In this document: in pieces, positions 24,500 to 27,447 of the stretch
How the letters are laid out: each line of letters opens with the position of its first letter
Position numbering within the stretch: position 1 is the stretch's first letter
Source of the DNA: Coptis chinensis
Taxonomy: Eukaryota > Streptophyta > Magnoliopsida > Ranunculales > Ranunculaceae
Direction: 5' to 3'
DNA length: 64,000 nucleotides
Assembly (NCBI GenBank): GCA_015680905.1
Contig: CM027377.1
Location: 22,902,501-22,966,500, forward strand
The notes under the pieces: model-generated
The model's database searches: none
Told to the model about the DNA's origin: nothing
Seen by the model: only the letters and a program-made list of their open reading frames with translations
Position numbers and translations under genes: made by a program

Positions 24500-25840
24500 A
24501 CGTGAATCTCTTAATCTCTCTTACTGCCATTATAGTTGGTTTGACTGCCACTTGAAGCTAGAGTATTATATCACTCGGGATTGAAGTCTTGAAGTTTGGA
24601 CCCAGTGGCGTGAACAGGAGAAAGCCAAATGGAGAACTATTTGACATCAGAAGTAGAACTCAAAGAATACGATGTAGATGAAGTACGAAAAAGGAATGAA
24701 AAACTTTATAGAGTAAATAATCTACATTTTGATGGTAAGGACAAGCTTCAAAATAAAATGTTTGAAAGTCTCAAAGTGGTGAAAGTTTTCAAAGGGGCCA
24801 TTGTTAGCTCAAATGCAATGGAAGTGTCGTTAGAACTTGAAAGAGAGAAAATACGACGATATTCACATAAAGATCTTATGAGGATTACTGAATATTTCAC
24901 TTGTCAAATAGGTTCTGGCGCTTATGGAGACGTCTTTAAAGGCCAATTACCTAATGGTGAGAAAGTTGCAGTTAAGAAATTAAAAAAAACCGCAGTGGAT
25001 GTTATGGAATACACATTCATGGCTGAAGTGAGATCAATGAGCAGCACTTCTCATCGAAACCTAGTTAGACTTTATGGATATTGTTTTGAGACGAACATGA
25101 AAGCACTTGTCTATGAATACTTGGAGAATGGATCTTTGGATGTTATTTTGTATGAGAACCATCTTAAGTTGCCGTGGCAGAGGTTGTATGATATTGCAAC
25201 TGAGACAGCAAAAGGGCTTTCTTATTTGCATGAAAGTTGCCACGAGGTAATAGTTCACTATGATGTAAAAGCTAGTAATGTGCTCATTGACTCAAATCTT
25301 TCTCCTAAGATTTCAGATTTTGGATTTGCCAAGGTTTCTCAAAGAGATGTTAGTAATATATCTTTGGTTGAATTCAGAGGGACCCGTGAGCTTTGCTGCC
25401 CCAGAAATGTGGATGCAAATGCCAATAACTTACAAAAAGTGATGTTTACAGTTTCGCATGATGTTGTTCAAGTTTTGGGGAGGAGGAGAATTTGTGTAGG
25501 CGATAATTGGTTTCCAGGACAAGTTTGGGAAAAATTTAAGAATGGACAAGTAAAACTAAATTATGGAGGAATGTGGAATTGAGGACATGGATAGAGAAAA
25601 TGCAACAACATTGGCAATTGTCGCATTGTGGTGTACTCAGCACAATCCCGGTGACAGACCAACCTTGGGCAAGGTGGTGAAAGTTCTTGAGGGGTACATA
25701 CAACTTCCACCCCCTCCCGATCCGCTTTATCCATATAGCTTCTCTTTAAACGTAAGCAAATTGGGAGCTAGCTCCACAGCAATTAGTGGACCTCCTCCTT
25801 CATCAGTTTCTTCTGATGTCTCTCTCACCCGGAGTGAACG
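24500..25840 (+). pseudogene. Receptor-like protein kinase remnant (LRK10L/PR5K type)
   Basis: The main frame (24629-25582) begins with a juxtamembrane segment. Its kinase domain has GSGAYG loop (residues 95-100), VAVKK lysine (116), HRNLVRLYGYC, ALVYEYLENGSLD, non-RD catalytic HYDVKASNVLID (210-221) and SDFGFAK (229-234). From about 25380 the family text continues in another frame (AAPEMWMQMPITYK), returns to the first (LGRRRICV, WFPGQVWEKFKNGQ), and ends in the +2 frame (25563-25840: ECGIEDMDRE, LAIVALWCTQHNPGDRP). This is the order of plant LRK10-like kinases, membrane receptors of biotic stress. At least three frame changes and no extracellular domain mark it as a pseudogene. A hydrophobic stretch at 24500-24545 (LLISLTAIIVGLTA) may be the old membrane segment. 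The usual C-terminal tail is replaced by a splice donor. Confidence 0.8.
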
Positions 25841-25937
25841 GTAAGAACACTAGCTATGAGATTTTTCTTTCTGAAATTAAATCTTTGATGCCCCCCCCCC
25901 CCTTCATTTCCTAATTGACGTTAATTGTGCAATGCAG
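25841..25937 (+). other. Candidate 97-base intron linking kinase and hexokinase frames
   Basis: GAACG|GTAAGA at 25840/25841 and AATGCAG|AACG at 25937/25938 are good plant donor and acceptor sites. Splicing would give [10 protein letters not shown], keeping the kinase tail in frame with the hexokinase. A 12-base C run lies at 25891-25902 inside it. Whether it is ever spliced is unknown. Confidence 0.5.
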
Positions 25938-27447
25938 AACGCAGAGTTCCGCTAACTGGGCTAAAGCTATGGCGATACTGAAAGAATTCGAAGACATGAG
26001 TGATACACCACTTGGGAAATTGAAACAAGTTGCTGAAGCCATGACTGTTGAAATGCATGCTGGTTTAGCTTCAGAAGGTGGAAGTACACTTGGGATGCTT
26101 ATCAGCTCTGTTGATAATCTTCCTACAGGGAATGAGCACGGATTATTCTATGCATTGGACCTTGGTGGAACAAAATTCTGCCTTTCACGTGTACAATTGG
26201 GTAGAAAGAAAAGACGTGTTCTTGAGCAAGAATCTACTGAAGTGTCAATACCTCCTCATATGATGGTTGGAACTTCTAAAGGACTATGTGATTTTATTAC
26301 TGAGGAATTAGCAACCTTTGTTGCTACGGAAGGCGATGGTGATTTTCATATTTCTCCTAGTAGGCAAAGGGAAATGGGGTTTAGTTTCTCATGCCCTATG
26401 ACACGTACATCTGGGACTCCTATCAAATGCACAAAACACTCGTCATCCATAGATGGTGCGGTTGACCAAGATCTGGTGGCACAATTGACACAATCCATGA
26501 AAAGCAAAGGTGTTGATATGCGTGTGGCGGCTGTAGTCAACGACACAATTCGTACTTTGGCTGGTGGCAGATACCTCAATAATGATGTCGTTGCTGCAGT
26601 GACCTTAGGTACTGGAACAAATGCGGCATATGTGGAGTGTGCAAATGCGATTTCTAAGTGGCATGGTGTTCTACCTAAATCAGGAGAGATGGTTATTAAC
26701 ATGGAGTGGGGTAACTTCAGATCAGTACATCTTCCTCTGACAGAATATGATCATGCTCTGGATGTGGAGAGTTTAAATGTTGGTGAACAGAGTTTTGGGA
26801 AGATTATATCTGGTAAGTACATGGGGGATATTGTGCGCAGGGTATTACTTAAAATGGCTGAAGAAGCTGACTTTTTTGGTGATACCGTTCCCTCAAAGCT
26901 TAGAATTCCATTTACATTGAGGACTCATGAAATGTCTGCGATGCATCACGACAATTCTCCTGATCTAAGAGTGGTCGGAAGCATATTGCAAGATATCTTG
27001 GGGATATCTAACACATCCTTGACAACTAGAAAAGTAGTTGTTGAGGTCTGTGTCATTGTTGCAGAGCGTGGAGCTCGTCTTTCTGCAGCTGGAATCTTAG
27101 GCATCTTGAAAAAAATAGGAAGAGAGACAGTCAAAAAGGGAGTCAAGCAGAAGACAGTGATAGCCATCGATGGTGGAGTATTTAAGCATTACTCAGAACT
27201 CACCAAGTGTTTGGAGAACACCCTTAAAGAGTTACTGGGGGAGGAGGTTAAGGACACTGTTGTCATCGAGCATGCTAATGATGTCCCCCGCATTGGGGCC
27301 GCTCTTATTGCTGCTTCACATTCCCAGTACAATGACATGAAGTCTGAGACTGGTGTAGTTGTTAGCAACCAGGTATCTTCCAAAAAAGGGAATCCATTTC
27401 TGTACATTTCTGTGTGCATTGCCTTGTATTTTTTGTCCAGGAGGTAA
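25915..27447 (+). CDS. Hexokinase-like protein, intronless retrocopy
   Basis: An uninterrupted frame of 510 codons aligns in order with plant hexokinases (HXK1 type), which phosphorylate glucose with ATP and sense sugar. Visible motifs: [41 protein letters not shown] (81-90), [13 protein letters not shown] (208-220, with Asp210 at the catalytic-base position), [11 protein letters not shown] (231-241), [24 protein letters not shown] (417-426). Plant HXK genes normally have about nine exons; here there are none inside, so a reverse-transcribed copy is inferred. The first about 25 residues (organelle targeting or anchor) are missing: the homology starts at 25938 right after a splice acceptor, and the ATG at 25915 lies in the putative intron. 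Family residues are changed: GGTNFR to GGTKFC, FSFPV...WTKGF to FSCPM...CTKHS, NDTVG to NDTIR, NDGSG to NDVPR. The C-terminus gains a hydrophobic tail ([13 protein letters not shown]). Probably non-catalytic; expression unknown. Confidence 0.85.

Follow-up and report, generated by a model that had tools for sequence, protein, structure and literature searches.

Chimeric retrogenes, for which jingwei in Drosophila is the precedent, join an intronless copy of a multi-exon gene to resident exons. Retrogenes of rice reportedly recruit neighbouring coding exons in this way (a finding attributed to Wang et al. 2006). The locus described here shows the same likeness, an intronless copy of a multi-exon hexokinase gene lying behind resident kinase exons. 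However, it differs from these chimeric retrogenes in that it retains a complete host kinase, whose stop codon would be skipped by use of a splice site that itself contains this stop, and in that both partners are full catalytic domains. A second related scheme is intronization. In the excerpt of Catania and Lynch 2008 (PMC2586383) on which we draw, introns are proposed to arise from stop-containing exonic stretches, for example via latent 5′ splice sites. The candidate fusion intron is likewise made of a former stop codon, 3′UTR and coding sequence, whereas the stops considered in that excerpt are premature and lie in one gene; here the stop is natural and two genes are joined.

Type B plant hexokinases carry an N-terminal anchor to the outer mitochondrial membrane, according to an excerpt of PMC3045890. 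As in these enzymes, both PF00349 and PF03727 are found in the fusion hexokinase, and its multi-exon relative on contig C3 has the type B N-terminus MGKLAVGATVICAATVCAAAALIV. However, the fusion lacks the N-terminal anchor, which is now intron, has a kinase in front, and has acquired a new C-terminal hydrophobic tail and an altered WTK loop. The kinase half shares PF07714 and the HYDVK motif with plant RLK/Pelle-type non-RD (HYD) kinases and differs from them in being joined to a hexokinase; it may resemble the LRK10-like kinases. Hexokinase is a known plant glucose sensor. Among the titles and abstract openings listed in a literature search there was no kinase-hexokinase fusion, no plant hexokinase retrogene and no comparable stop-codon splice fusion, which does not prove their absence.

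The window, that is the whole stretch of 64,000 nt that was analysed, corresponds to C1:22,902,501-22,966,500, and the genome searched amounts to 935.6 Mb in 116 contigs. The window contains the following features.

23389-23395, + strand: GTAAGTA, a putative 5′UTR donor situated ahead of the kinase exon
24629-25582, + strand: kinase exon, first part, from Met 24629, covering the N-lobe to the activation loop; frame lost past 25388
25388-25556 (end approximate), + strand: five one-base indels breaking the window kinase frame, private to the window copy in the five-copy alignment
25560-25840, + strand: kinase exon, last part, with the end of the C-lobe and the C-terminal tail; its frame runs into the hexokinase (L013 3561-3841)
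25841-25937, + strand: candidate intron, 97 nt, 61% AT, with donor and acceptor in five of five copies
25911-25915, + strand: CTAAT, branch-point-like, starting 27 nt before the intron end
25938-27447, + strand: intronless hexokinase exon, stop TAA 27445-27447, open frame 25915-27447
27337-27444, + strand: C-terminal extension derived from the former hexokinase 3′UTR, by alignment to the C3 stop and 3′UTR

The original prediction, made from the window alone, had placed a donor at 25840/25841 and an acceptor at 25937/25938, 97 nt apart and joinable in frame. Direct reading of the letters reproduced all of this exactly, with AGT GAA CG/GTAAGA at the donor and TGTGCAATGCAG/AACGCAG at the acceptor. 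The joined frame is open from 25560 to the TAA at 27445-27447 and encodes 596 residues (L013). The upstream kinase ORF (24614-25582), which contains Met 24629, matches PF07714 (6.4e-35), and the hexokinase exon matches both hexokinase domains, PF00349 (2.2e-46) and PF03727 (1.5e-73).

The genome was searched for Hexokinase_2 profile matches and the 10-kb surroundings of these matches were then inspected. Five kinase plus hexokinase units were found, four on C1 and one on C7. Three of the intronless hexokinases have long open frames (C1:22.809M, C7:3.504M and the window) and two further ones are broken (C1 22.729M and 22.981M); the same kinase lies upstream of the hexokinase at all five loci within the 10-kb stretches. 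The arrangement first proposed for the window, an intronless hexokinase behind existing kinase exons and joinable to them through a new intron, therefore extends to five copies. All five carry the donor AGTGAACG/GTAAGA, and the donor, the acceptor and the in-frame junction are kept in five of the five copies found. Luck in a single copy was considered as the origin of the in-frame join and rejected, since the frame is kept in every one of them.

Alignment of the units separates two clades. Clade A comprises the window copy and L009 (99.7% identity over the unit) and clade B comprises L010, L011 and L012 (99.2-99.9% identity), with 90.2-90.6% identity between the clades in the two pairs compared. 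The clade A acceptor is single, TGCAG/AACGCAG. All three clade B copies have 6 extra bases at this point, which create tandem acceptors CAGAACCAG six bases apart and both in frame. The resulting intron lengths are 97 nt in the window, 89 nt in L009, and 177/183, 178/184 and 179/185 nt in L010, L011 and L012, respectively. The distance from CTAAT to the intron end is 27 nt in the window copy and also in L009. In L012 the element stands 31 and 23 nt ahead of the downstream acceptor; L010 and L011 did not enter this count. The units on C1 follow each other in the order A, B, A, B at 22.727, 22.807, 22.929 and 22.979 Mb, with another B copy on C7. From the coordinates, this order suggests that a segment holding one A and one B unit was recently duplicated on C1. 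Inspection by eye of one end of the stretch shared between C1 and C7 recognised no transposon termini.

The kinase tail had also been expected to continue past the donor. This proved wrong: the window donor contains the kinase's own stop, CGG TAA (TAA 25842-25844), so the kinase by itself ends there, and kinase relatives whose ends resemble it terminate at this point or within a few residues further on. Homology to the 3′UTRs of kinase paralogues identifies the 5′ part of the intron as the former kinase stop codon and 3′UTR; the alignment of the paralogues crosses the stop region of the fusions and, in clade B, reaches as far as about 140-150 nt into the intron. The intronless hexokinase has the same orientation as the kinase and lies ~140-150 nt past the kinase stop codon. 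At the donor site the fusions carry CGGTAAGA, and some paralogues carry AGGTACGA (L019, L041), CGGTATGA (L017, L020) or CGGTAACA (L040) at the same position. Of 25 unfused kinase loci, five (L018, L022, L024, L025, L027) have a GTAAG that begins two bases past the stop, and none has GGTAAG within 45 bases of it. Sequence resembling a donor close to the stop is thus shared with some unfused loci; its exact form at the stop is specific to the fusions.

The 3′ end of the intron (about 25921-25937) is homologous to LIVQRRMKNS and represents former anchor-region codons of the hexokinase. At this place TTGATTGTGCAAAGAAGAATGAAGAATTC (L-I-V-Q-R-R-M-K-N-S) in the C3 gene corresponds to TAATTGTGCAATGCAGAACGCAGAATTC or similar in the fusions, with 33 of 42 nt matching in clade A and 32 of 42 in clade B when the 6-nt insertion is left out. 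The anchor-region codons ..CAA AGA AGA ATG.. of the C3 gene correspond to the fusion acceptor ..CAATGCAG/AACG. This homology places the 3′ splice site within the codons that directly follow the former anchor helix. Since the intron is built from the kinase stop, its 3′UTR and the hexokinase anchor codons, a single splicing step would take out both the stop and the former anchor.

The best explanation for this arrangement is probably a family of chimeric retrogenes that joins the kinase to the hexokinase, and from the sequence a real fusion gene family is most likely. An intronless hexokinase copy would have settled downstream of a cytoplasmic-type, non-RD kinase gene in the same orientation. 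The kinase stop CGG TAA would then serve within a good 5′ splice site (G/GTAAGA), and codons of the former hexokinase anchor region would have been turned into a 3′ splice site. A single intron would carry off the stop codon, the kinase 3′UTR and the N-terminal anchor of the hexokinase, and the product would be one polypeptide composed of the kinase, a proline/serine-rich linker and the hexokinase. If the splice is used, the locus shows within one genome how two complete genes become one: with the stop in the donor and the anchor codons supplying the acceptor, the new intron itself removes the obstacles to fusion.

The same letters could also be read as two adjoining genes, a kinase that ends at its TAA and a soluble, anchorless hexokinase that starts at the internal Met 25969 (WAKAM), the splice sites being incidental. 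Both clades retain this internal ATG, the hexokinase has complete domains even when the anchor is lacking, and GTAAG also stands just after the stop in the five unfused kinase loci named above. All five copies also retain the kinase stop codon; however, this does not discriminate between the two readings because the stop is part of the donor. The acceptor, by contrast, is kept in five of five copies, the six bases inserted there in clade B preserve the frame, and none of the 25 unfused loci has GGTAAG within 45 bases of its stop. Two separate genes are, in our judgement, a decidedly unlikely account of the locus.

Both halves of the proposed fusion can be compared with relatives in the same genome. 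The nearest multi-exon hexokinase gene (C3:1,945,299-1,949,559) has nine exon blocks separated by eight gaps, and the fusion hexokinase is one open frame without any of its 8 introns. Identity of the joined C3 protein to the fusion hexokinase is 77% in clade A and 76% in clade B, with a dS of about 0.43. As assembled, the C3 gene (L045, C3:1,944,900-1,950,100) carries an additional base in the final exon; being frameshifted, it may not be an intact parent. Against the AtHXK1 structure (chain 4qs7) the hexokinase exon has 66% identity; the best-scoring solved chain for the kinase is BAK1 (3uim). The closest unfused kinases among the 119 matches listed are about 70-71% identical to the fusion kinase, so no close unfused sister is present among them (118 of 2176 candidates being scored); dS to L017, the best full-length one of these, is 0.65-0.74. 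Assumed rates of 5-8e-9 per site per year would date the A/B split to roughly 8-17 million years ago and give the hexokinase retrocopy an age of at most about 27-43 million years; these figures are approximate and hinge on C3 parentage. No poly(A) remnant or target-site duplication was recognised when the 3′ ends of the retrocopies were aligned to the C3 gene and inspected by eye.

Divergence between the clades was calculated by the Nei-Gojobori method with bootstrap, clade A being represented by the kinase of L009 and the hexokinase of the window, and clade B by L012. For the kinase exon, dN is 0.038, dS 0.166 and omega 0.23 (bootstrap 0.14-0.39; 340 codons). For the hexokinase exon, dN is 0.061, dS 0.120 and omega 0.51 (0.35-0.75; 494 codons), or 0.45 for the core without the tail (0.29-0.71; 455 codons); the copies within each clade being closely related, these values amount in effect to one comparison. 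Between the clades both exons are under purifying selection, the kinase being well constrained and the hexokinase moderately so. Clade-fixed substitutions, defined as columns uniform within each clade, occupy 7.8% of the kinase (92/1182 columns) and 6.7% of the hexokinase (99/1480), compared with 14.6% of the intron (12/82), 18.9% of the 5′ flank (53/281) and 25.9% of the 3′ flank (14/54). The exons are less diverged than both flanks (Fisher p = 2.6e-12) and than the intron (Fisher p = 0.017, a value resting on 82 intron columns). By codon position, the substitutions are distributed 33/15/44 in the kinase, where the third position is favoured (p = 0.0009), and 27/30/42 in the hexokinase, where a bias is not clear (p = 0.15). 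This lack of a clear position bias in the hexokinase, together with an omega of 1.2 over the 39 codons of its C-terminal tail, indicates that constraint there is weak or absent. The kinase value of 0.23 argues for selection on the kinase as a protein in this family. Duplication into the two clades followed the fusion, and both domains were then kept under purifying selection, the hexokinase less strictly.

The kinase had originally been called a remnant. The term may suit the window copy, in which five private indels break the frame, but not the family, as the kinase exon is open in three of the five copies (L009, L011 and L012). The hexokinase exon is open in two (the window and L012). L012, on C7 (C7:3,502,100-3,505,100; putative junction from L012 4388 to 4568 or 4574), is the sole copy open through both domains, with 892 or 890 codons from the first Met (MDEVRKG); counted from the stop upstream, its joined frame has 902 or 900. 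The other four copies, namely the window copy (in its kinase), L009, L010 and L011, are frameshifted by one- or two-base indels at 17 exon sites. Sixteen of these sites are private to one copy (5 in the window, 5 in L009, 4 in L011 and 2 in L010), and at the other one the same G run is shortened in one copy of each clade, L009 and L011. Over the aligned unit, small indels (1-2 nt) are roughly as frequent as substitutions between near-identical copies, with 11 and 11 between the window copy and L009, and 8 and 5 between L010 and L011; in a count by eye, 13 of these 19 indels fall in runs of at least 3 equal bases. Upstream of the unit, the window and L009 differ by 22 substitutions and 6 small indels (seven 400-base bins, 21500-24299). 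An identical private change, AATTCG to AATTAAG, was also observed at different sites of the hexokinase exon in L009 and L011.

Such frameshifts would be expected of a decaying pseudogene family, in which the fusion once existed, the copies are now dead or dying, and an omega below 1 dates from before their death. The relaxed constraint on the hexokinase and its altered sugar loop are compatible with this account. However, the C7 copy is open, and the private sites, the G run shared by copies of different clades and the many indels in base runs between near-identical copies also suit assembly error. The exon indels may reflect assembly error in segmental duplications; judging from the letters, assembly error and recent decay both fit the frameshifts. 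We consider it unlikely that the family as a whole is decaying. It had further been suggested that the kinase in the window might act only as a transcript driver or 5′ leader, its exon being untranslated or its translation aborted, with the hexokinase alone made. The window kinase as assembled cannot be read through, and to this extent the suggestion fits this copy. The kinase omega of 0.23 between the clades and the open kinase exons of L009, L011 and L012 argue against it elsewhere, so that it would apply at most to the window copy, and even there it appears very improbable.

Returning to the fusion reading, we compared the ends and catalytic residues of the two domains. The N-terminal membrane anchor is absent from the fusion hexokinase, its codons lying upstream of the acceptor with only a LIVQCR remnant. 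At the other end, the C3 stop (GAT TAG) aligns, with a one-base gap, to GACATG in the fusions; the hexokinase stop is lost and the frame continues into former 3′UTR. In the window this tail contains a hydrophobic stretch (27397-27435) followed by S-R-R-stop. The clade B tail ends in ..IFLLLSVCVALYFFTRR, and the clade A tail ends differently in sequence. The best 14-residue hydropathy is 2.16 for the A tail and 2.76 for the B tail, compared with 2.59 for the N-terminal anchor of C3. Because T-rich 3′UTR, once translated, tends to give hydrophobic residues, and because the tail lacks constraint, membrane anchoring by the tail is put forward here as a hypothesis: the hydrophobic tail ending in RR might replace the lost anchor and hold the protein on a membrane, perhaps the outer mitochondrial one, with both domains in the cytosol.

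In the kinase, L012 and L009 both have VAVKK, FMAEV, HYDVKASN, DFG and APE, and with them the Lys, Glu, catalytic Asp and DFG of the domain; the window copy is frameshifted. HYD replaces HRD in seven of the seven paralogues checked (HYDVK). In the hexokinase, MEWGNF and other loops are kept. The sugar contacts are presumably the Asp in VNDT, the Ser in FSFP and the Thr-Lys in WTK. This Ser and Asp are kept in the window copy and in L012. However, three residues are deleted before the WTK loop, and WTK itself has become CTK in the window copy and WTN (Lys to Asn) in L012. Loss of the WTK Lys is expected to harm glucose binding; the hexokinase half may therefore be a weak or dead enzyme, and it might serve less as an enzyme than as a module for sugar binding or docking. 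A more tentative proposal, which we consider unlikely, is a working, membrane-tethered fusion that acts as a one-piece sugar-responsive kinase: a sugar-binding module derived from hexokinase would control or position the attached non-RD kinase, with the N-terminal anchor lost to an intron and an anchor regained at the C-terminus from 3′UTR. If the protein is made, kinase and hexokinase on one chain would render a direct coupling of sugar binding to phosphorylation testable.

The kinase had also been described as that of a receptor. No receptor part was recognised nearby. No ectodomain or transmembrane span was recognised in L012, where plus-strand frames are short between 1600 and 3190. On the plus strand of the window between 21530 and 24610, the longest frame has 124 codons (23683-24054) and no Pfam match at E 0.1. 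This frame includes a hydrophobic run with MRGPSSVFLLCLLFVLMIFAPCIFLASC, signal-peptide-like by eye. The frame is part of a clade A-specific segment of ~866 bases (23450-24315), seen in the window copy and L009 and located within the putative 5′ intron. A genome search with this segment returned, besides the clade A copies, one 79% fragment of ~80 bases and no nameable repeat family. The term receptor-like cytoplasmic kinase thus fits better than receptor kinase, although distant or unrecognised exons may exist. The motif CTTAGTT.GTAAGTA, which contains the candidate 5′UTR donor, was found in five of five units; on neither strand does it occur in the 25 loci of unfused kinase paralogues, each taken with about 1.5 kb of flank.

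Elsewhere in the window, transposon pieces are found at 17061-17690 (-), 19146-20885 (+), 53148-53672 (+) and 56131-56622 (+); they comprise MULE transposase, retrotransposon gag, RNase H-like and reverse transcriptase sequences. Finally, the CMAS family has 24 matches on several contigs, for example L046 on C2. A fragment pieced together from L046 most closely matches the benzylisoquinoline-alkaloid enzymes tetrahydroprotoberberine and coclaurine N-methyltransferases.
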